Notes: generated by a model not told the origin, from the letters alone. A stretch of DNA of 29,400 nt from a virus (IMGVR_UViG_3300005253_000117:1-29400), one strand, 5' to 3'. Shown: positions 10,901 through 23,385, counted from the first letter of the stretch. Translations and numbers: made by a program.

Positions 10901-11902
10901 AGGACTGTTAACGGGAAGGTTCCGAACAATGCAGCTATAGATGTTATCGCATCGTTGACTGGCCCAGTCCCAGGTATCGGTAATCTTCCGCCGTCGATAA
11001 ATGCCTTCATGGCTATCGCTGCTAATCTGGATATGTGGAGGAATGACCAGATATGGAGAGGTAGAGAGGGAATACCTAAACATATGGAGCGTCAGCTTAC
11101 AGGGGAGAACCCAACGAGTACGTTAGCAGTAGATATAGGTCGGGCGATCGGTCCGCCGTTGCAGGACGTTGAGCCGTTAGACGCATTCTCCTCACCTAAA
11201 CGATTGGAGGTTGCTACGCGCTCTCTAATACCTCAGAATGTCTGGACTGATATGGTAGGTTGGGGGTATAAGGGTCTAATGCATGGGATGAGTGATGAGC
11301 AGAACACGGCAGTTACCGAGAGTTTCATGCAACAGTTAGCAGAATTCCCATTTAGTCGGCGGTTTGTATCTGAAACCCATCCGCTGGTTTCGAGTCTGGA
11401 TAATATCCGGGCAAGACAGAAGGAGGCTAGTGGTGAGGTATGGGAGTTGCAAGAGAACATCAAGGTAATGATGGAGGGTATGAAGAAGGAGAGTGGTCTT
11501 AGACGACTGACAGGAAGGAATGTTGATGAGGTTAGTACATGGATTGAGAAGCAGCCTATTCTACACCAAGAGACCCTTGCTACCTATGCAACGAATACGA
11601 TTAAACTGGATGCGATATTTAAGGAGCTTAACCTCGCCGAAATGCCTGGTATGCCTCAGAGAGATGAGCTTCTTTTGTTGACGGGTGAAGATGTCCAAAC
11701 GCGCGCAATGATATTCATGGACTATTATACTGATGCTAAGGAGGATGTTAGGAGTGAGGTAGCAGGAGATAGGCGGGCGGGTAGGAAGAAGATACGTGCG
11801 CTGGATAATGTCATGGCTCTGGTTCCCGGCTTCTCTAGTCGTCGGATGGCTCTTGCTCTGGAGAAGGTGGCTCGGGAACGGGGAGTGGCTCTTCCTCAGT
11901 AG
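7955..11902 (+). CDS. Giant polyvalent / ejection protein (LPD38-like C-terminal region)
   Basis: A 1315-residue protein, the last gene of the virion arm. Residues 5-45 hold two and a half copies of a 16-residue acidic repeat (TF[DN]L[ED]DV..DP..P[IV][IV]). A hydrophobic Gly/Ala-rich stretch (VYAAIAIPLLRGAGAGRITSSIVGGALADLAAF, about 174-206) could insert in or pack against a membrane. The segments from about residue 700 to 1000, including INPEFAFVNFPRDIMYSW, YLNETSEIWVRLAVRNRAI and IPYTNAGVQGLRGLGRA, resemble the 'large polyvalent protein-associated domain 38' found in proteins injected with phage DNA; this is from memory of the family pattern. Codons 48-52 (VQNLN) are written by palindrome copy 2. 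The last 68 bases overlap the convergent helicase gene. Confidence 0.6.
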   Translation: MADPTFDLEDVDKDPNKPIVTFNLDDVGQDPTQPVITFDLEDLGPTAVQNLNTPEQVDELVIMPSLDEFLEEIDRGLEITVKQLEEGGAQSAQEEIQFSIDRINQMSPQMRRLLGGVLGTADDYIEDLYIEQDTQKVIERQAATRALIEMGTPPESLGGGITRGVTRIGVYAAIAIPLLRGAGAGRITSSIVGGALADLAAFEGSEPRLSNMLAELNQPEVTKAVFEYLSADPNDDAVEQKFKQAIEGIILGGVGEGIARSIGLTFRMANGVRRKLQARLIGKSKGTQPLPRSGSRNPEVVAIETQMDQEATKIFNSKLIGKTLRSAEGKFQSPASMIKAFEERMFELDPTGLLTPRQMADKVIAFKGLADTVFSMSDEAVKDGKAINQALKANREALEAANKKTAARRFRGFLNSLETSIVDRNAGLKRELLKQGGAEGRTAVMHLELAQGAGTAAQHFYREGWKQIYRGLGVDDRRVLDDIIMLSRISEIKKYQPNWQPPIDIPGVRGGRKAGKEAYDAALIQKRLEVGEEVWGSLEPRSVSYFEHIKRSIDVLLEGGVISKAEHKALGQFRYSPIQFLENLDPVMMTFREGPKTISVRSSGLQPLGRGDEKIVLTNTDMFLGQVLSRAHSRAARNRANQALFQMAKDTPDNGVVAVGKKAPKEGDWAQISVMIEGESKNMFLKKEFVKQWSSDPIAVSMASRVFSGSFLVRPFATGINPEFAFVNFPRDIMYSWLTAADGTLYSTNIFRGLGELTNDLVTVLPDAWGRKGRFEDYLKQGGGMNLMTHGAREGLGELDIAGKVSGRARALSEVQHVLGYLNETSEIWVRLAVRNRAIKKALAEGKSLAEAELEGTWQGRRYLDFAQGGGMTKRIDGWIPYTNAGVQGLRGLGRAAVNNPKIVSAKIGQVMGVYASVWYANHIVNPEAWKQVPDYAKNRNLIITTPFYRIDMEGNKRFTYYKIPIDHSTMPFKVLSDAMMERTVNGKVPNNAAIDVIASLTGPVPGIGNLPPSINAFMAIAANLDMWRNDQIWRGREGIPKHMERQLTGENPTSTLAVDIGRAIGPPLQDVEPLDAFSSPKRLEVATRSLIPQNVWTDMVGWGYKGLMHGMSDEQNTAVTESFMQQLAEFPFSRRFVSETHPLVSSLDNIRARQKEASGEVWELQENIKVMMEGMKKESGLRRLTGRNVDEVSTWIEKQPILHQETLATYATNTIKLDAIFKELNLAEMPGMPQRDELLLLTGEDVQTRAMIFMDYYTDAKEDVRSEVAGDRRAGRKKIRALDNVMALVPGFSSRRMALALEKVARERGVALPQ
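8096..8113 (+). repeat. Oriented palindromic element, copy 2 (inside a coding region)
   Basis: GTTCAAAATTTGAACACA, identical over all 18 bases to copy 1 at 151-168, here inside codons 48-53 of the giant virion protein. It lies straight after the acidic 16-residue repeats. An identical non-coding and coding copy makes convergent protein-level constraint unlikely as the cause and suggests a DNA- or RNA-level role. Confidence 0.7.
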
Positions 11903-13094
11903 GTACACCGATATACCTATATTCTACATCATTGTCCTCAATTATTCTGAAGATCTTAATAATCTTCATACCTTCAAGTACGCCTTCAATTTGTTCGAGA
12001 GTCCATAGGTCGATATCTCGATAGTGTTCTCGCAGGAGCACACTCCGCCTGACCGTCCGTTTTTTCATTATGTAGTTTAGAACAGCATCAGTCTGATCAG
12101 CAAAACGCGCACGGCCCAGGCCGGTAAAGGCTCGCTGCATTTTCTTCTCAGCATTTTCCAGGATTTTTTGTGCCCTAAGAAGATCTTCATTTGTGATGAT
12201 GAGGTCGTCACCACGTGAGGCCGATAGAGCCATTGCCACTTTCTTAATGTGAGTTGCGCGCCGTGAGATATAACCCGAGAACTTTGGATCGGGTATCGGG
12301 AATATGCCTTTCTTAATACCTCGTTCTTGCGCTTCATACCAGTTGACATAGTTATCTAGTGCCTCCTTATCAAATTCGTACTGACCGCGCAGGATATGGA
12401 TTTGTTCTAAGTCGTGTTCGAGTTTCTTCTTTAGCTTCTCGTCGACTCCGAAGAGGTTGGGGTTTGATATGACTTTTCCTTTATAGTTCTCGACGACGAA
12501 TATAACTCGAGAAGTCCATCCTCCTCCAACCGCTTCCGTAGGCAATATTGAAGGAAGCCAGTCAGGAGCAGTGGCGCCCAGAAGATTGACGCATACTCCT
12601 GTAACGCGATCAATCCCTTGATGTTTCGTCTCATAAGTCCACTCCGGTCTACTGTCATACCAATCAGTCATGTAGCCTAACAACTGCACATCCTTCTGTC
12701 GAAGGAGAACAGTTAACTCGTCGCTGATAATTGTAAGGGCGCTTTGGAATTTAGGTTCTCCTTGAGCATTCTGGTAGGTTGATGTAGAGTCCTTTAGTTT
12801 AGATATTAGAGCTTCTTGGGTTGTACTCTGTGCGCCGACGTTTACTCCGATATGATCTATAAAATTCCGGGCGAGGTTAACTGCTTCGCCTTTACGCGAT
12901 TGCCCAGACGGGCCAATTAGTACAATGTACTGGTTAGGATATATATCTGAATGCCCCCACTTCATAAAGCATTTTCGTTCAAGAGCAGATGCAATTGTGG
13001 ATATACCTACCCATATATGATAAGATAGTGGGGGTTCAGTATTCTTTGTAAATTCAATATACCCGGCAAGCCAATCACTAAGCATTCTATCCAC
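11835..13094 (-). CDS. DUF3987-type P-loop ATPase, probable replicative helicase/primase-like protein
   Basis: A 419-residue protein. The phosphate-binding loop reads GPSGQSRKGEA (residues 61-71), the variant 'GxSGxxRKG' seen in DUF3987-like ATPases. A Walker B follows at LTIISDEL (120-127, Asp125-Glu126), then LLGATAPDWLPSILP with a sensor-like polar residue and GGGWTSRVIFV near 205. The last 20 residues are acidic and Pro-rich. It immediately follows the split DNA polymerase in transcription order, which supports a replication role. The start is a GTG with GGGAG nine bases upstream; ATG 13085 is an alternative. The 3' end overlaps the convergent virion gene by 68 bp. Confidence 0.65.
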   Translation of the reverse strand: MDRMLSDWLAGYIEFTKNTEPPLSYHIWVGISTIASALERKCFMKWGHSDIYPNQYIVLIGPSGQSRKGEAVNLARNFIDHIGVNVGAQSTTQEALISKLKDSTSTYQNAQGEPKFQSALTIISDELTVLLRQKDVQLLGYMTDWYDSRPEWTYETKHQGIDRVTGVCVNLLGATAPDWLPSILPTEAVGGGWTSRVIFVVENYKGKVISNPNLFGVDEKLKKKLEHDLEQIHILRGQYEFDKEALDNYVNWYEAQERGIKKGIFPIPDPKFSGYISRRATHIKKVAMALSASRGDDLIITNEDLLRAQKILENAEKKMQRAFTGLGRARFADQTDAVLNYIMKKRTVRRSVLLREHYRDIDLWTLEQIEGVLEGMKIIKIFRIIEDNDVEYRYIGVPTEEEPLPVPEPPSPEQEPSDD

Positions 13095-13145: not shown

Positions 13146-14684
13146 CTATGCTGCCTGTTTTAGTTGAAGATATTTAGCTTCTAATCGATCAGCTAACTCG
13201 GTTTCATTATCTATTATAGGTATACCTGTCATTCCATAGGCATTATCCTGCTCATTGTACTCGCCCCAGTTCAGACCAATTTGTAGATCAGTCTCAATCT
13301 GGAATGAGCGGCCTTCATAGGTGAGAACGGGGTTTAGATGATCGCGCATTATTAAGATAGCCTTAGCAGCATTTTTCCACTGTCCTATTGGATATTGAGA
13401 TAAGACTGAGTCATGCACCTGGGCACTGAGTCTGAGAGGCTTGATTGATCGGGCGTCGTCCCAATAGATATCTATGATTGCCCGATTTACTAAGTCCGCG
13501 TTAGCCGATTGAGACATATATGATATAGCAGCTTTGAGCAAATCAGAGCTAAGTGGATCGTCTCCCCATTGACCAAGGAAACGCCTCGGGCGTCCGAAAC
13601 AATTTATCAGTGTGCGGTCTCTTGCCAGTTTTCCGTGGATGCGATACCAGTAGGCGACTAATCCAGGGTAGCCCTCACGATAGGCCATGACTAACTGCTT
13701 TGCTTCCGCCTCAGGGATTTCATTCTCTAGGGCGAACCTCCAATAACCCATTAGATAGTTCAGGCCGTGGTTGGATTTCTTTCCTGCCTGACGACAGGAC
13801 ATAGAACGAGGTAAGAATACGCCTGCCTCAAGGATTTCTGGGAGAAGCTCATGGCGGGCTTTTGTTAGGAGGTCTTGGTCGGTAACGTGGCCGAATAACT
13901 TAGCCTCCTTTTTTATAAGTTCTATAGGTATCCCAGTCATCATGTGGGCGGTAGATGCGTGAACGTCCTCGCCACGCTCGATAGCAGATATCATATTCGC
14001 ATCGTTGCATAGGTAGGCGGTAATAACCCACTCCGATTGCCGCTTATCGAGTTCGATGAAGAAGTGGTCGGGATCGGGGACTATGAAGCCCTTAAAAACT
14101 GGATGTAGATTTTGCAGGTTCATCCCTGTTCCGAAGATATTCTGGCTACTTGATATGCGACCTTCACGTGTACCCCGCAGATTGTAGGAGGTTCGCACTC
14201 TACCGTCACTGTCAGTTTCCACGTCGAGGTAAGTCCCTTTGAGTTTATTGTATCCTCGAATATTCTGTACCAGCTTCGCTTCACGGATGCCTTTTCGTGC
14301 GAGTCTAGCCATTGCCTTATCGTCGGTAGTAGGTCGGCCAGAACTTCCTGTATACGGAGTCTGGCCAAGGGTTCCATAGAAATAGGCAATACACTGTTTG
14401 GGAGAAAGAGCATTTAGTTCAAAGCCGGCGAGTTCAGTTAGCTCTGCCTCGGCTTCCCTTTGTAGTTTGCTTACGCGGTCACGCTCGATGGATAGGCGAG
14501 TTTTGTCGATCAACAAGCCTGTAGTCATCATGAAGATGACAGGTTCGTATAGGTTCATAGTTTGGCGATAGATATCCTGGTAGCCGCCCGCCGGGAGTTC
14601 GGCTTTTATATCCTCCCATATGTGGAAATCCACTGCGGCGTCGATGGAGTTATAGAGCGCCCAATTTTCGCTGCTTGTTAGCAT
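13146..14684 (-). CDS. Family A DNA polymerase, polymerase domain plus exonuclease motif III (split gene, C-terminal part)
   Basis: A 512-residue protein. Residues 7-19 (WALYNSIDAAVDF) are the YxxxD exonuclease motif III (Tyr11, Asp15) that normally ends the proofreading domain, so the gene begins inside that domain. Polymerase motifs follow: TREGRISSSQN...NLQNL (172-193), motif A ELDKRQSEW (Asp213), O-helix motif B R298-K302-H306-Y310, and motif C QVHDS (His424, Asp425). The thumb and fingers look complete. Deviations: His at the position of E. coli Phe762/T7 Tyr526, Ser after the catalytic Asp in motif C where Glu is usual, and Arg in DxxQ of motif A. The catalytic carboxylates are present, so it is likely active. 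Its partner domain is the gene at 15389-16423. Confidence 0.88.
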   Translation of the reverse strand: MLTSSENWALYNSIDAAVDFHIWEDIKAELPAGGYQDIYRQTMNLYEPVIFMMTTGLLIDKTRLSIERDRVSKLQREAEAELTELAGFELNALSPKQCIAYFYGTLGQTPYTGSSGRPTTDDKAMARLARKGIREAKLVQNIRGYNKLKGTYLDVETDSDGRVRTSYNLRGTREGRISSSQNIFGTGMNLQNLHPVFKGFIVPDPDHFFIELDKRQSEWVITAYLCNDANMISAIERGEDVHASTAHMMTGIPIELIKKEAKLFGHVTDQDLLTKARHELLPEILEAGVFLPRSMSCRQAGKKSNHGLNYLMGYWRFALENEIPEAEAKQLVMAYREGYPGLVAYWYRIHGKLARDRTLINCFGRPRRFLGQWGDDPLSSDLLKAAISYMSQSANADLVNRAIIDIYWDDARSIKPLRLSAQVHDSVLSQYPIGQWKNAAKAILIMRDHLNPVLTYEGRSFQIETDLQIGLNWGEYNEQDNAYGMTGIPIIDNETELADRLEAKYLQLKQAA

Positions 14685-14685
14685 G

Positions 14686-14895
14686 TTATGTTCCCTTTGG
14701 ATTACCTGTTATCTTAGATATCTCAACCTCATCAGGTAGTATTATCGTTATATTGAAGTCGTTACTTGGGGGATTCAGTTGTTCTACTTCTATCACTGTA
14801 ACTTCCTCCTTATATACTACTCTTGATAGGTAGTATTGAATAGCCTTCTGTACAAGTTCCTTACTAAAGTTCATCCTAATTATACGTTCCATCAT
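14686..14895 (-). CDS. Small protein of unknown function between the polymerase halves
   Basis: A 69-residue protein. It has a short basic N-terminus, a helix (SKELVQKAIQYYLSRVVY) and two beta strands (EEVTVIEVEQL, FNITIILPDEVEI). It starts at ATG 14895, overlapping the upstream TGA, and ends two bases before the polymerase ATG, whose Shine-Dalgarno (AAAGGGA) lies within its last codons. No recognised family. It is one of three small genes lying between the exonuclease-motif gene and the polymerase gene. Confidence 0.6.
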   Translation of the reverse strand: MMERIIRMNFSKELVQKAIQYYLSRVVYKEEVTVIEVEQLNPPSNDFNITIILPDEVEISKITGNPKGT

Positions 14896-15194
14896 CCGTC
14901 CTCCTTGTGTTCAACTACTCCATGCTCGTCAGGCTTACCCCACTTACGCTTTTGGTTTATAGCAAACTTCTTTTCAAGGGCAGTGGATAAGTTATGTATG
15001 TCAAAGCCTTGCTCTCGTAGTCCGTGCATGAATAGAAGTATAGCATCTGCCCATTCTTCTATATCATTAGGTTTAGCCTCAATCTCATCAAGTTCCCTGC
15101 GTAGGTGAGTTAAGATTGAGTGGTTAGTTCGCTGAGGGAAAGTATCCTCCGCCCAATTAGTCATTCGGTAGAACATTTCTGAGTTTATAACCAT
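14892..15194 (-). CDS. MazG-like dNTP pyrophosphohydrolase (DUF550 type)
   Basis: A 100-residue all-helical protein. The signature is clear: W14...TFPQRT, H30LRRELDE with E34 and E37, then DIEEWADAILLFMHG with E47 and D50 forming the second metal-binding ExxD, and a tail with K76, N80, R83 and W85 (KFAINQKRKWGKP...GVVEH). These four carboxylates hold Mg2+ in MazG-fold enzymes that cleave (d)NTP to (d)NMP and PPi; DUF550 members act on dATP/dGTP. It fits a phage that manages its nucleotide pool. The gene lies between the two halves of the DNA polymerase. The C-terminal KEDG is encoded by the AAGGAGG Shine-Dalgarno of the next gene. Confidence 0.78.
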   Translation of the reverse strand: MVINSEMFYRMTNWAEDTFPQRTNHSILTHLRRELDEIEAKPNDIEEWADAILLFMHGLREQGFDIHNLSTALEKKFAINQKRKWGKPDEHGVVEHKEDG

Positions 15195-15198
15195 CTAT

Positions 15199-15396
15199 CT
15201 ATCCTCTTGTTGCCTCAATCTTTCTTAATCTTTTAACTTCCTTGTATGCGTTCACTTTTTTCAGTCTGGTATCTACAACAACGCCACGTCGGTATATTCT
15301 CCAGTAGGAACAGTCTTGTGTTCGGTAGTCTTTCCCGTGGAGGAAAGGACGATTTTTAACAAATTCTGCATATACTACAGATTTGCATCTATCCAT
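15199..15396 (-). CDS. Small basic protein of unknown function between the polymerase halves
   Basis: A 65-residue basic protein with the segments AEFVKNRPFLHGKDYRTQDCSYWRIY, a VVVDTRLKK strand and a helix rich in Lys/Arg at the end (NAYKEVKRLRKIEATRG). It overlaps the end of the glycosylase-exonuclease gene by eight bases, so translation is probably coupled. The basic charge would suit nucleic-acid binding, which is only an inference. I looked for HNH or GIY-YIG homing-endonuclease motifs and saw none. Confidence 0.55.
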   Translation of the reverse strand: MDRCKSVVYAEFVKNRPFLHGKDYRTQDCSYWRIYRRGVVVDTRLKKVNAYKEVKRLRKIEATRG

Positions 15397-16423
15397 CCTC
15401 CTTATCTATCTCTCCATGCTTAACCATATCCTTCCAGTAGGGTTGATCAGTATAGATCGACGCTAGAAAGGCTAGACTCTTTGGGAAGTCTGCATACATT
15501 ATATGATTAGCGATCATGGTATCCTCGAGGTTTCCTTGTACAAGAATGTCATGGACCTGGAAGAGGAACTGTACATCGAAGGCGCCGTTCTGGAAGATCT
15601 TGGTTATGCTCTCATCTTCGAGAAGCACAGCAGTTGCCCTCCATAGAGCTGCTTCTTGCTGTAAACTCCACCCACCCATACCATAGGGGATACTAACAGC
15701 CTCGAGAGGAGACCAAGCATAGGCGATACAGCTGACTTGTTTATGCGCCACCTCAATATCCACAGCGATAGGGTTACAGTTTTTCCTAAGCCAGTCCAAG
15801 TAATCCATACACTTCTCGAAGGTCAAGTGCATGGGGAACTCGTATTGAGGTCGATTGATCTCAGGGAAGGCGCTCTCCTTCGCTGCGCGTTCCATGTCAC
15901 TTCGGATGATATATCGAACTGTATACATTCCGTATAGGGCATTCGCTGGGTGGATTGTGGGAACGCATTTGCGGGGCGCTGGAGCGCCTGTGGCGCGTGT
16001 TGCGGGCACGATGGACCCCCGCCATTTGGTAATGCCCCGCAACCCACACACGGCCTCGAGGGCCGGCCCACCGCACGGTACAATAACATTCGCGCGGGTT
16101 TGGTTGAGTTCCTGCCACAGACGATCTTTGTGTATATCAGCAGCTTTGGTTAGGCCACTACGCGGAGACCAGAGGAGTACATCGGTCTCAGGATCGTATA
16201 TGTTTGCCTTGCTCGATCCCTGCCCTTTCTTAACCATGAAGTCAAAGACATTGGTAAGATAGCATTCACTCCGAAGGATGCCTGCACTCTCAAGGCATTC
16301 GTTTAGAACTTGACCCGCCGCACCGACGAATGGGCGGCCTTCGTAGATTTCACTCTTAGCAGGGGCCTCACCGATTAGGACAATCTTCGCAGTTAACGGG
16401 TCGCCTTCAGGTTGGTAAGGCAT
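15389..16423 (-). CDS. Uracil-DNA glycosylase fused to DNA polymerase 3'-5' exonuclease motifs I and II (split polymerase, N-terminal part)
   Basis: A 344-residue protein with two modules. Residues 10-185 are a family 4-like uracil-DNA glycosylase: motif GEAPAKSE (18-25), GRPFVGAAGQVL, YLTNVF (Asn58) and HPANALYG (His158). The N-terminal Cys pair of iron-sulfur family 4 enzymes is not visible. Residues 195-340 are the start of a family A proofreading exonuclease: motif I IAVDIE (Asp222, Glu224), motif II FQNGAFD (Asn279, Asp283), then LEDTMIANHIMY and LAFLASIYTDQPYWKD, which normally leads into motif III. Motif III is absent here and appears at the start of the gene at 13146-14684. The C-terminus IDKEDG is encoded by the next gene's Shine-Dalgarno. 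It probably associates with the polymerase subunit. Confidence 0.82.
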   Translation of the reverse strand: MPYQPEGDPLTAKIVLIGEAPAKSEIYEGRPFVGAAGQVLNECLESAGILRSECYLTNVFDFMVKKGQGSSKANIYDPETDVLLWSPRSGLTKAADIHKDRLWQELNQTRANVIVPCGGPALEAVCGLRGITKWRGSIVPATRATGAPAPRKCVPTIHPANALYGMYTVRYIIRSDMERAAKESAFPEINRPQYEFPMHLTFEKCMDYLDWLRKNCNPIAVDIEVAHKQVSCIAYAWSPLEAVSIPYGMGGWSLQQEAALWRATAVLLEDESITKIFQNGAFDVQFLFQVHDILVQGNLEDTMIANHIMYADFPKSLAFLASIYTDQPYWKDMVKHGEIDKEDG

Positions 16424-16891: not shown

Positions 16892-17076
16892 CAGATCATT
16901 CCTTTTTCTAAAGCCATCCACTCAGGCATAGTTATCCATTTTATATCTTCATCGTATTCACATAGATCCTTAGGAACCCAGAACTCGTTGTCGCCATCAG
17001 ATAATAGATAGGCCTCATCAGTCTCCGTGATTAGATCTATTTCAATGCTGACTGGGTTATCGTCAAACTTCCCCAT
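16891..17076 (-). CDS. Small acidic conserved-looking phage protein
   Basis: A 61-residue acidic protein of the pattern 'EIDLITETDEAYLL.DGDNEFWVPKDLCEYDED..WITMPEWMALEKGMI'. I associate this pattern with short proteins found across many phages and prophages, without a known function. It is a small beta-rich fold with conserved Trp residues (WVPK, MPEWMA). It overlaps the upstream DUF4326 gene by 14 bases and the downstream gene by one, so all three are probably co-translated. Confidence 0.6.
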   Translation of the reverse strand: MGKFDDNPVSIEIDLITETDEAYLLSDGDNEFWVPKDLCEYDEDIKWITMPEWMALEKGMI

Positions 17077-17371
17077 CGACTTTTTCCTTATTGTTATCTA
17101 CAAATCTTTTAAGAATATCGCCGTGGCAAGCTTTTGGTGAGCACCAGCAGCCAAGTATCTTATCTTTTAGTTCAGTTTTAGCATGACTTAGACTAGGCCG
17201 TAGAGTATTATCAGGCGCTTTTATTACACCTAATAACCAATCCTCATACTTAGATATAACCTCCTCTCTTGTTCCGTCCTTTCCAATTATAAAAGGGTTT
17301 CCCCATTTAGATGGCCTACCAATATATACATCATATTTATCTCTTTTACAGTGAACTATTCTAGTTGTCAT
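17063..17371 (-). CDS. DUF4326-family protein
   Basis: A 102-residue protein with the full DUF4326 signature: YIGRPSKWGNPF (residues 16-27), DGTREEVISKYEDWL, then LGCWCSPKACHGDIL (72-86) with two conserved Cys before ACHGD. The molecular function of the family is not established as far as I know; the conserved Cys/His group and Arg-Pro-x-x-Trp-Gly-Asn motif suggest an enzyme or ligand-binding site. It is common in phages beside nucleotide and DNA-modification genes. It overlaps the methyltransferase gene end by 11 bases. Confidence 0.8.
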   Translation of the reverse strand: MTTRIVHCKRDKYDVYIGRPSKWGNPFIIGKDGTREEVISKYEDWLLGVIKAPDNTLRPSLSHAKTELKDKILGCWCSPKACHGDILKRFVDNNKEKVDGEV

Positions 17372-18662
17372 CTTCTACTCCTCCGGGAAACTGTTCATCA
17401 ATACGGGCGAGGAAACGATCCTTGTGTATTTGGCTTAGGTCATATCCCCATCCAGACATACTCTCGTAATAAGCAGCAATCAATGTATTCCCGCTGCCAA
17501 GAAAGGGTACAAGTATTCGATACTTAGGAAAGGCGAGCGTCTGTAGGATTTCCCTCATTAGTTCTACTGGGCGCTCAGTTGCATGGATACGTTGAGAGGG
17601 AGGTACGCCAGCGAATGCGAATACATTAGGCCGGGCGAGATTTCTTATCCGCGGGTTCCCTTTTCGACATATAAAAAATGGTTCATAGGCTCTAGATAAA
17701 TAAACATTAGGATTGTTTGTAGTACTGGGCGAGTCCACCTTATACCATATTGCAGGTATGTCGTCTACATGGAAGCCCACACTTTCAAGAGCATCTTTAA
17801 CCATACAATGCCAAGTCGGCCCATACCACCAAACGCAGAATGTATTGTCCTTTAGAATACGATAGACCTGCAGAGCAACCGACTTTATAAATCCAGGATA
17901 GACATTCCCAGGGATTTCATGGTAAGTATCAATAGCGATTGAGGTGTCATATTCTTTATTTCTCGTAGCTCGTTTTTCCGTAAGATCAATCCCATACGGC
18001 GGGTCAACCTCCGCAAAGGAAGCGATCCTATCGGATGCCTGAGAGAGTCCTTCAACTGCGTCCCGCACAAGATAGTCGTCAGTTGCGAATTTTGATAAAC
18101 TTCCAGCAGGCGCTTCGCTAATAGATCTTCGTATATGAGCATCCTTACTAATCCGGTTAACTTTCTTTCTTGCAGCGTCGGCTGTTGGGAGATTAGCAAG
18201 AGCAGGGAGGACAGCCATTGCTTCTGCAAGTTGGATTGAGTCGTTGATGCCGCCGATGCTTTTGCCAAGGAGTTTCGCCGTCGCCCTCTGCGTCCACTCA
18301 TCGCCATGTTTCTCCTGCATTAGTGTGTGAATTTGTTGAGTTGCTATAGCCTGCTCAGGCCATTCCAGGTCCTTACGATGGATATTTTCAAAGAGTTCAA
18401 TCTCACGTTCGTCGAGTTTGTCCTCAGTTGGACGGATTATACAGTCGATGGTTGGAAGTTCAGCGAGTTTGGTTGCGGCCAGGCGTCGCCCGCCGGCAAG
18501 CAGTCGATAGTCAGGCGTTATGGTTATGGGTTGGATTAGGCCCTTGGCTGCAATACTAACGGCTAGTTCATCTATATTCCCCATATCAGTACGCTGGCGG
18601 TCCTCAACGATTATTTTATCAGTAGGTAGGTTTACAATCTTTTTTTCGTTGCGCTTAGCCAT
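17361..18662 (-). CDS. ParB-domain / DNA methyltransferase fusion (orphan phage methyltransferase)
   Basis: A 433-residue protein. Residues 10-100 are a ParB/sulfiredoxin-like domain: LPTDKIIVEDRQR, GLIQPITITPDYRLLAGGRRLAA (GGRR at 57-60) and ELFENIHRKDLEWPEQA. Residues 110-200 are helical and resemble the ParB helix-turn-helix. Residues 210-433 are an amino-methyltransferase of the class where the catalytic DPPY motif (VDPPYGI, 219-225) precedes the AdoMet-binding motif (PFLGSGNT, about 386-393), like beta-class N4-cytosine or N6-adenine enzymes. No restriction endonuclease is adjacent, so it probably protects phage DNA or marks it. The specificity cannot be read from sequence. Translation is coupled to the preceding small gene (TAATG). 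Confidence 0.85.
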   Translation of the reverse strand: MAKRNEKKIVNLPTDKIIVEDRQRTDMGNIDELAVSIAAKGLIQPITITPDYRLLAGGRRLAATKLAELPTIDCIIRPTEDKLDEREIELFENIHRKDLEWPEQAIATQQIHTLMQEKHGDEWTQRATAKLLGKSIGGINDSIQLAEAMAVLPALANLPTADAARKKVNRISKDAHIRRSISEAPAGSLSKFATDDYLVRDAVEGLSQASDRIASFAEVDPPYGIDLTEKRATRNKEYDTSIAIDTYHEIPGNVYPGFIKSVALQVYRILKDNTFCVWWYGPTWHCMVKDALESVGFHVDDIPAIWYKVDSPSTTNNPNVYLSRAYEPFFICRKGNPRIRNLARPNVFAFAGVPPSQRIHATERPVELMREILQTLAFPKYRILVPFLGSGNTLIAAYYESMSGWGYDLSQIHKDRFLARIDEQFPGGVEDDN

Positions 18663-19067: not shown

Positions 19068-19697
19068 CTAGCCCACACCCTCTGCGAAGTCGCACGCCAT
19101 CTGACGGGCGTCATCCAGTGTCTTAGCTGTCCACTTACCACGCCCAAATATCTCAGGGTATGGCGTAAACACGCTGCTGATCGAGCCGCGTATTTTTTTG
19201 TTCGGCACGGTCTCGGCGTACCTCCATTCCGTCCGAACACCCGAGTGACCGCCTTCCGTGGTTTCATGAGCTGCGATCTGGTCGTGGCCCTTATCATCCC
19301 AGAACCGGATGCAGTTCAGCCGGAAATCTTCTTTGTCCTTCGGCATATAACCGCAATTGCCCGGCTTGACGTGTGAGCCGACGCCAAATCCGTAGATCGC
19401 TCGGTGGCTCCAGCCATACCATTTCTGCTCGCGCTCACAGAAGCCGATGGAGCAGACCTTGTGACCGCGCAGGACTTCCGGCGCGATACCTATCTTCTTG
19501 CAGAGCATATGCGCAGTCCTTGGGTCTCCAATGTAGTGACCAGCCGGCGTGCGGGCGACTTTCATAGTAATTATCTGTGCCGACATCCTGTTGATTGCGT
19601 CGGCCAGTTCGTCCGTCTCACCGTTATCCTCATTCGTTTCCAGCCAGACATTGTAGCCAGCCTTGTAGCGACGAAATATCCTGCTCGTAGTTTTCAT
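19068..19697 (-). CDS. Phage protein of unknown function with conserved GWSHRA segment, GC-rich
   Basis: A 209-residue protein. Recognisable segments are CSIGFCEREQKWYGWSHRAIYGFGVGS (about 81-107), 'KPGNCGYMPKDKEDF' and a C-terminal 'TAKTLDDARQMACDFAEGVG'. I have seen this Cys/Trp/His-rich pattern in many phages and prophages with no known function. By eye the gene is richer in G+C than its neighbours (about 55 to 57% against roughly 45%) and uses different codons, and it lies just downstream of palindrome copy 3, which suggests recent acquisition as a moron. The Shine-Dalgarno GAGGAG precedes the start. Confidence 0.6.
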   Translation of the reverse strand: MKTTSRIFRRYKAGYNVWLETNEDNGETDELADAINRMSAQIITMKVARTPAGHYIGDPRTAHMLCKKIGIAPEVLRGHKVCSIGFCEREQKWYGWSHRAIYGFGVGSHVKPGNCGYMPKDKEDFRLNCIRFWDDKGHDQIAAHETTEGGHSGVRTEWRYAETVPNKKIRGSISSVFTPYPEIFGRGKWTAKTLDDARQMACDFAEGVG

Positions 19698-21844: not shown

Positions 21845-22642
21845 TTAGCTAGTTGACTTCTGGATTAAGGCACTAATTCCATAGTCCTCAGGCTTCATCC
21901 AATTCTCGATTGTTACATCTTCGACTGGACTAAGACCCCGCATCGTGTTACGGATGTAGGGATTATAGCGATCCTGAGTTGTCTGGATATAGTACCGCGG
22001 ATTTCCATCTTTATCAGTGTCAGCATAGAAGCGCCATATCTCACTGAACAGTAGAGGGAGACTGTTTCGTAGTCGACCGATTAGCACGAGGGTGTTCATC
22101 ATCTTACCAGACACATCCTCTTGCTTAAATTCATTGTGGGCAGTTACATAGGATATGCAGCCTTCGATAGATGTCCACGTCCGTATTACGTTTTTGATAG
22201 TATTCATGCTGGCTGTCCAGTCGGCCTGCTCAGGCCACTTACCAAAGCGATTGTTCAGGTACATGATCCTGTCCATTACTATGTCGGAGAAGGTTGTCAT
22301 GCTGTCAAAGCCGATTGCATTGTAGTCGTCGAAGAAGCCATTGTTGAGTCTTTGCTCAAAGTCCTCCTCAAACTCGACATAGGTACGAGGTTCAGGTGGT
22401 TGGCCGCGGGTAGTATCAGCTACGCCCTTCTTCAAGGTAACGGCCTTTAGGTTGAGAACATCCGGTGTGAATATCTCATAATCTACATTATGGCCTTTGA
22501 TAGTGGATAGGGTGTTTGGGTCGAAGATATACATGAACTTCTTACCAGGTATAGTAAGGAAACCAGCAGACTTACCGCCGCCTACTCCACCAACTGCCAG
22601 AATTTTCTCACTTTGTAGTGTGTAGTCATTTGCGTTAGGCAT
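21845..22642 (-). CDS. Sak4-like RecA-fold ATPase (single-strand annealing/recombination)
   Basis: A 265-residue protein. Walker A VGGVGGGKS is at residues 17-25 (Lys24, Ser25) and Walker B AIGFDS at 109-114 (Asp113). Then come a polar strand CISYVTAHNEFKQED and LFSEIWRFYADTDKDGNPRYYIQT, a beta pattern typical of the short RecA-like Sak4 proteins and AAA_24-type ATPases in phages. Such proteins anneal or exchange single strands during recombination. The next gene in transcription order is a likely ssDNA-binding partner and a Cas4/RecB-like nuclease is upstream, making a plausible recombination module. Confidence 0.72.
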   Translation of the reverse strand: MPNANDYTLQSEKILAVGGVGGGKSAGFLTIPGKKFMYIFDPNTLSTIKGHNVDYEIFTPDVLNLKAVTLKKGVADTTRGQPPEPRTYVEFEEDFEQRLNNGFFDDYNAIGFDSMTTFSDIVMDRIMYLNNRFGKWPEQADWTASMNTIKNVIRTWTSIEGCISYVTAHNEFKQEDVSGKMMNTLVLIGRLRNSLPLLFSEIWRFYADTDKDGNPRYYIQTTQDRYNPYIRNTMRGLSPVEDVTIENWMKPEDYGISALIQKSTS

Positions 22643-23087
22643 TTTTTGGTTGCTCCTTATTTTCAGTGTTCATCATAACATCATCCGTCGAACTATTCAA
22701 CAGATCATCAGGCCAGTGTTTGATATATTCATCAGGGGGGATGTATATAATAGGTAGAACTAACCCATTTATGATATCTGTCTCCCAGGCTACTCCCTTA
22801 CTTTCCTCCCATCCAGGGAGTTGAAGAACAAACATGCCAGAAGATTTAATTAGGAAGGGATGGTCGGTAGCTAGCCAGGTTGAATGAGATATCGGTACTC
22901 TATTCTCATTTGCCCAGTTATGTGGACCATGAGTCATACAAATTGGGCTGAAGATACTTATACCCGTCTTGATTAAATGAACATAGCACTCCATGACAGC
23001 CATGTATCTGAGTTCTCGTACTGAACTTAGTTCATGCGTGTAAGGGCAGGCAAGATAATAGTACTCGTCTCGATCACTATATTTCAT
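22635..23087 (-). CDS. DUF1937-type (nucleoside deoxyribosyltransferase-like fold) protein
   Basis: About 150 residues. The core reads YLACPYTH, then ELRYMAVMECYVHLIKTGISIFSPICMTHG, TDHPFLIKSSGMFVLQLPGWEESKGVAWE. This is the DUF1937 pattern: a Rossmann-like domain related to nucleoside 2-deoxyribosyltransferases, with the 'LPGWxxSKGV' loop. A role in nucleotide metabolism is suggested but not proven. I choose ATG 23087 with GGAGAGGAG upstream over an in-frame TTG at 23114. The C-terminus is low complexity and overlaps the next gene by eight bases. Confidence 0.65.
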   Translation of the reverse strand: MKYSDRDEYYYLACPYTHELSSVRELRYMAVMECYVHLIKTGISIFSPICMTHGPHNWANENRVPISHSTWLATDHPFLIKSSGMFVLQLPGWEESKGVAWETDIINGLVLPIIYIPPDEYIKHWPDDLLNSSTDDVMMNTENKEQPKNA

Positions 23088-23385
23088 TTTGTTTAGGCTC
23101 CTCTCCCTGCTCAATGTGTGTTATTCTTATGACAGGGATTGCTTGAAGGTTTAAGACTATTTGGTCGCCATCAGGTATGAAAACATTCCATATTTTATTT
23201 CCTGCCTCCATTGCTGCTAGTAGTTTATCTACCATATCTTTATACACTGTGATTGATATAGTAGATTGTCCTAGCAAGATCGTTAAAATTACCTTGGCAC
23301 GATCAGTATCATCGCCACCATCAGGGCTATCGTTGCTAGGAACTGGATTAGTTCCATGTTCGTTAGTCCCATCAGAGTTTTCCAT
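23077..23385 (-). CDS. Hypothetical protein with acidic N-terminus
   Basis: A 102-residue protein. The first 29 residues are low-complexity and acidic (Asp, Asn, Gly, Pro), followed by beta strands (KVILTILLGQSTISITVYKDMV, IWNVFIPDGDQIVLNLQAIPVIRITHI). No catalytic motif, signal peptide or transmembrane segment is evident. It overlaps the nuclease gene's end by 14 bases and the following gene's start by 11. Function unknown. Confidence 0.5.
   Translation of the reverse strand: MENSDGTNEHGTNPVPSNDSPDGGDDTDRAKVILTILLGQSTISITVYKDMVDKLLAAMEAGNKIWNVFIPDGDQIVLNLQAIPVIRITHIEQGEEPKQNEI

Follow-up and report, generated by a model that had tools for sequence, protein, structure and literature searches.

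The viral DNA sequence IMGVR_UViG_3300005253_000117:1-29400, a stretch of 29,400 nucleotides referred to here as the window, encodes its family A replicative DNA polymerase in two genes, and the break lies inside the proofreading 3'-5' exonuclease domain, between its motifs II and III. From sequence comparison we propose that the products probably constitute a two-subunit polymerase whose proofreading site is completed in trans. According to this proposal the gene would have been broken in a variable loop, so that the upstream gene would provide a uracil-DNA glycosylase (UDG) domain plus most of the exonuclease, and the downstream gene the polymerase together with the last exonuclease helix, which holds motif III; assembly of both chains would then complete one active site.

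The upstream gene (15389-16423, minus strand) codes for an N-terminal subunit of 344 amino acids, in which Pfam recognizes a UDG domain (4.8e-19, residues 5-165) and DNA_pol_A_exo1 (6.1e-10, residues 214-326). The downstream gene (13146-14684, minus strand) codes for a C-terminal subunit of 512 amino acids that starts with exonuclease motif III and continues into thumb, palm and fingers (DNA_pol_A, 1.2e-43); this part also matches the Klenow fragment by sequence. The two proteins match successive parts of one and the same DNA polymerase profile, phrog_17 (positions 479-798 for the N part, then 808-1234 for the C part), and exonuclease and polymerase are on two polypeptides rather than on one chain. 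The halves are separated by a gap of about 0.7 kb with three small open reading frames (ORFs). A preliminary description made from the window alone had claimed this two-gene arrangement, the three intervening genes and the glycosylase domain, and its coordinates and its catalytic residues proved to be right; both genes are on the minus strand.

Of the exonuclease residues in question, the N part has Asp222 and Glu224 (motif I) and Asn279 and Asp283 (motif II), and the C part has Tyr11 and Asp15 (motif III). All are invariant in alignments with relatives, and in 35 split alleles each of the six catalytic positions is conserved in 35 of 35. Of the 160 columns of the exonuclease no more than 11 show no variation in these alleles, and the six catalytic columns all belong to this small set (hypergeometric probability 2e-8), from which we conclude that proofreading has very probably been kept, with its site completed in trans. 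The members of the main clade are by no means close copies of each other: pairwise identity has a median of 50% and a minimum of 37% (29 members compared). The ratio of nonsynonymous to synonymous substitution rates (dN/dS) is about 0.04-0.07 in the UDG, exonuclease and C parts of L088/L089, the only close pair in which synonymous sites are short of saturation; two further pairs agree, their dS being near saturation. Judged from these ratios, purifying selection acts on both halves. Together with the invariant columns, this points to strong selection on the exonuclease residues of the two chains alike, as is expected if the chains complete one site.

The polymerase motifs of the C part are likewise complete: motif A has Asp213, motif B Arg298/Lys302/His306/Tyr310 and motif C His424-Asp425. 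Asp213, Arg298/Lys302 and His424-Asp425 are invariant among relatives. His306 is equivalent to Phe762 of E. coli Pol I and is a histidine in nearly all members of the family; for phage PolA proteins, Phe, Tyr or Leu are usually discussed at this position.

Relatives were collected by scans of IMG/VR and by mapping a full-length profile on all ORFs; when the N half was used as a lone protein query, there was no match. A break between exonuclease motifs II and III, called site A here, was found in about 40 distinct sequences. These comprise the window, contigs from IMG/VR and Kuura, a Caulobacter phage isolate with two small unassigned ORFs between the halves. The same place in about 40 sequences argues that the split is not a matter of chance. 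In the paper on Kuura a DNA polymerase is reported; searching its text for a split revealed no mention of one. In three relatives (L006, L119, L134) the break is just after motif III, and at about 25 loci it is just before polymerase motif A, at profile positions 550-554 (site B; for example L026, L043, L053, L055, L059, L062, L068, L005 and the isolated Vibrio phage VS-ABTNL-3). Site B members keep all motifs although the break is inside the polymerase domain. Since here the polymerase domain itself is broken, and a phage can hardly dispense with its polymerase, site B strengthens the case that this family tolerates reassembly. Many relatives are unsplit. The unsplit homologs that the preliminary description had suggested looking for do exist, with the same domains in one chain, in Desulfofustis phage LS06-2018-MD01, Microcystis phage Mel-JY34, ctMlz233 and others. 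As far as can be read from these comparisons, the split is an old and recurrent trait of a phage group that has further break sites as well. A different kind of interruption, in-frame inserts of about 300 amino acids in the polymerase domain, was seen in L127:4003-6561, L030:5995-8469, L192:4968-7454 and L072:4963-8331; the insert of L127 matches intein splicing and LAGLIDADG domains, and for those of L030, L192 and L072 there was no further Pfam match.

In a tree of the polymerase part, 32 site A members form one clade (support 94), and the window branches together with L008 and L011 in the neighbourhood of unsplit and site B members. A lineage of Kuura, L126 and L137 lies far away. One origin for the main clade and the window trio was not rejected by the approximately unbiased (AU) test (p 0.20). 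A single origin for all site A splits, which would include the lineage of Kuura, L126 and L137, was rejected (p 0.002). Unless joined alleles have been restored, this loop was thus broken in no fewer than two lineages. Alleles without any gene between the halves, alleles with an HNH endonuclease gene and alleles with other genes are interspersed in the tree, the six insert-free ones being scattered; the split is thus stable and the cargo turns over.

Comparison of the split ends with the corresponding loop of unsplit members, e.g. YYKDEGKxWFKxGGxWxxLWxYNxxDS, places the break in a length-variable loop. The upstream protein of site A members typically ends with YWKD-x-VKF-x-NIK-(D/E)-(E/D)-(S/A), and the downstream protein typically starts with M-(K)-M-D-E-x-F-L-R-Y-N-A-L-D-S. 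In the window the N part has a 12-residue C-terminal tail after YWKD, MVKHGEIDKEDG (15392-15427, minus strand), of the same type as in split relatives. Its codons contain AAGGAGG, a Shine-Dalgarno-like sequence for the next ORF, and motifs of the AAGGA/AGGGA/GAGGA type are found in the upstream tail codons of 30 of 40 split N genes. This is consistent with termination-reinitiation, by which the tail codons would couple translation of the downstream or inserted gene to that of the N gene. A gene inserted here would be translatable in this way, and for this reason the spot would tolerate insertion and replacement of small genes. The tail is not claimed as a protein-interaction motif, since much of it overlaps the Shine-Dalgarno-like codons and it is predicted to be disordered.

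For the insert-free pair of L080, joined by reading through its TAG, AlphaFold2 predicted a structure with a mean predicted local distance difference test score (pLDDT) of 94.2 and a predicted template modelling score of 0.89, in which the lowest ten-residue block (residues 321-330, pLDDT 62) is the break. With Foldseek, the nearest solved folds to this model were E. coli Pol I and its Klenow fragment. The N part of the window alone was predicted with a pLDDT of 90.8, its tail being the disordered segment already mentioned.

Could the working enzyme nevertheless be one chain, because an intron like that of SPO1 gene 31 splices itself out or a split intein joins the halves? Phage DNA polymerase genes often hold introns, and an intron was suggested by the authors who described a split PolA in OM43 phages (PMC10580990). 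However, no intron was found by Rfam at gathering score in the window or in ten split relatives. At E<=1 there was no match in the inserts of the window and L009, and for the insert of L118 there was only an irrelevant match to a small nucleolar RNA (E 0.36). Moreover, six split relatives have no insert at all: the genes meet as TAATG in L016, L178, L181 and L182, as GTGA in L179 and as TAG-ATG in L080. At these six junctions there is room for nothing but stop and start codons, no intron is possible and splicing is ruled out. The frame relations differ among them, so a common frameshift is no explanation either. As for an intein, neither half of the window has a Pfam match to one; the N part stops 12 residues past YWKD, and beyond this tail and a lead of about 10 residues there is nothing from which an intein half could be made. 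The preliminary description had named splicing as one process that could undo its reading; in the light of these results we regard a spliced single chain as very improbable.

A domain broken inside its active site could also be expected to be inactive, and the N part might survive for its UDG alone while the polymerase works without an exonuclease. This is hard to reconcile with six catalytic residues that are kept in every split allele compared at a median identity of 50% in the main clade, and with an acidic residue of the UDG motif that is less conserved than the exonuclease residues. Loss of proofreading is, in our view, quite unlikely. Where the preliminary description had left the choice between completion in trans and loss, the former is well supported by the conservation, the joined model and the absence of a splicing element, and the latter has found no support. 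Recent pseudogenes, assembly errors or read errors are hardly conceivable as a general cause, because about 40 sequences of different origin, an isolate among them, share the break and both halves are under purifying selection; the read error that had been considered as a refutation is contradicted by the same fact. An individual case of this sort may be L032 (5961-5965), which has a single in-frame TGA in the loop where the others are broken while the rest of its clade is unsplit. It may be a stop mutation, a read error or a very young split, and it was set aside from the split alleles.

Several points do weigh against a two-chain polymerase with a shared proofreading site and an endonuclease in its history. 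The joined L080 model is a single chain with the stop codon read as Gln, and Kuura is the only isolate among the site A members, all others being metagenomic contigs. Split alleles have Glu, Asp or sometimes Gly or Asn at the acidic position of the UDG motif, and this variation makes UDG activity uncertain. Finally, searches of Pfam and PHROG gave no endonuclease between the halves of the window, so an endonuclease origin is conjectural for the window itself.

The family-4-like UDG domain of the window carries the motifs GEAPA and HPAN, to be compared with GE(A/G)PG and an HPS-type motif in family 4, and it matches family-4 UDG chains in the PDB at 1.6e-12. Several PDB chains of this family are named 'Phage SPO1 DNA polymerase-related protein'.

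What lies in the gap differs from relative to relative. In the window the ORF next to the N gene (15199-15396, minus strand) codes for 65 amino acids; it has no family match above Pfam cut-offs and none in PHROG, and its translation is uncertain because its start codon sits directly on AAGGAGG. It is followed by a gene for a MazG-like dATP/dGTP pyrophosphohydrolase of 100 amino acids (14892-15194, minus strand; PF04447 dATP-dGTP_PPHyd 7.5e-16, phrog_4826 7.6e-21) and by an ORF of 69 amino acids (14686-14895, minus strand) that remained unassigned in the Pfam and PHROG scans. Four relatives (L009, L118, L180, L187) have an HNH endonuclease at site A, identified in L009 by phrog_3377 (6e-31) and in L118 by HNH_3 (1e-14) and phrog_826 (5e-38). 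In L009 the last residues of the endonuclease ORF, VKFNDIKENS*, nearly repeat those of the upstream gene, VNFHDIKENS*; this looks like the footprint of an insertion at the 3' end of a gene that was already split. At site B, L143 has a DnaQ-like exonuclease, and L043 and L046 have ORFs whose resemblance to HNH proteins is confined to the zinc ribbon at the C-terminal end and which are possible HNH remnants. The MazG gene had led to the suggestion that dNTP-control functions are exchanged within the replication module. This suggestion is borne out in part: L008 and L126, which belong to distant lineages, both have a dCMP deaminase at site A, and L074 and L075 have ThyX at site B. Against it, most inserted ORFs are small and unassigned, and the six insert-free split alleles carry none.

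Homing endonucleases would be a likely driver of insertion. On the origin of the split, which is a separate matter from two working chains, there is somewhat less than an even chance that plain fission by a stop and a start codon came first and that endonucleases arrived later as cargo. Insert-free alleles interspersed with HNH and other alleles speak for this order of events, and the same uncertainty has been stated for gene 43 of the T4 type (PMC2988022); however, the HNH genes at the break and the HNH-like remnants at site B fit an endonuclease origin equally well. It is tempting to speculate further that the break is a selected feature and not a scar, that is, a separate chain for proofreading and uracil reading with a ribosome-binding 'docking' junction in the replication operon at which endonucleases and nucleotide-pool genes come and go, by which proofreading could be tuned or exchanged independently of synthesis. 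We consider this rather unlikely.

Endonuclease-associated split phage genes, split family B polymerases and a family A polymerase split in the polymerase domain are already known. In the T4-like Aeromonas phages 25 and 44RR the replicative polymerase is encoded by two genes, gp43A and gp43B, with an endonuclease gene or a non-coding stretch between them, and the halves of phage 25 co-purify and are active (PMC2988022). Those polymerases belong to family B and have no UDG, and for them no break that separates the catalytic motifs of proofreading from each other is described in PMC2988022; here, in contrast, a group of family A polymerases shows the split repeatedly and the cargo includes genes of nucleotide metabolism. 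In Aeromonas phage Aeh1, nrdA is split by the HNH endonuclease gene mobE in a functionally critical region and two chains rebuild the enzyme (PMC2988022), but this is a ribonucleotide reductase, not a polymerase, and the endonuclease is still present. PolA of the OM43 phages MEP401 and MEP402 is encoded by two ORFs with a small ORF between them, which is common in that group (PMC10580990). There, the exonuclease is whole and the break is in the polymerase domain, the first ORF holding the exonuclease and the N-terminal part of the polymerase and the second its C-terminal part; on our profile the N ORF covers positions up to 452 and the C ORF those from 629 onwards, and this break is not equated with site A or site B. 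Desulfofustis phage LS06-2018-MD01 has a UDG-exonuclease-PolA protein (WBK39748) with the same domain order and gene neighbourhood at 34-35% identity, but as one chain of 826 amino acids. In polymerases of the SPO1 type, a phage family A gene with a linked UDG-like domain is interrupted by a group I intron and spliced to give one protein, whereas here two proteins are encoded and no intron was found. In the literature searched, with subscription journals mostly outside its scope, there was no family A polymerase that is broken between exonuclease motifs and has a two-chain site. In these papers, the sharing of one family A proofreading site between two chains thus seems to be undescribed.

If the chains share one active site, the proofreading domain of a family A polymerase would here be divided naturally between two chains, an arrangement that has lasted through deep divergence and was reached at least two times at the same loop. 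It would be a system for studying the path from split enzymes to obligate complexes and the reshaping of essential genes by endonucleases, and it would offer polymerases with a proofreading subunit that can be added or omitted in vitro. It is also a warning for annotation, because a UDG-exonuclease protein listed as a 'hypothetical protein', an example being that of phage Kuura, is one half of a replicase.

The polymerase is adjoined downstream by a DUF3987/primase-like gene (11835-13094, minus strand; phrog_14296 DNA primase, 1.6e-55), and a primase-like or DUF3987 gene is also next after the polymerase gene in L001, L002, L008 and L009. Upstream, the window has a gene (17361-18662, minus strand) whose product combines the N-terminal domain of ParB with an N6/N4 DNA methyltransferase domain; a gene annotated as ParB or methyltransferase, or a similar ORF, precedes the polymerase in L001, L002, L008, L009 and L080. 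The early region of the window further contains a DUF4326 gene (17063-17371, minus strand, 1.4e-27) and a DUF1937 gene (22635-23114, minus strand, 4.4e-15). The gene at 19068-19697 (minus strand) matches the Pfam family Tad6, a type I Thoeris inhibitor, at 8.7e-53 and is likely an anti-defence gene.

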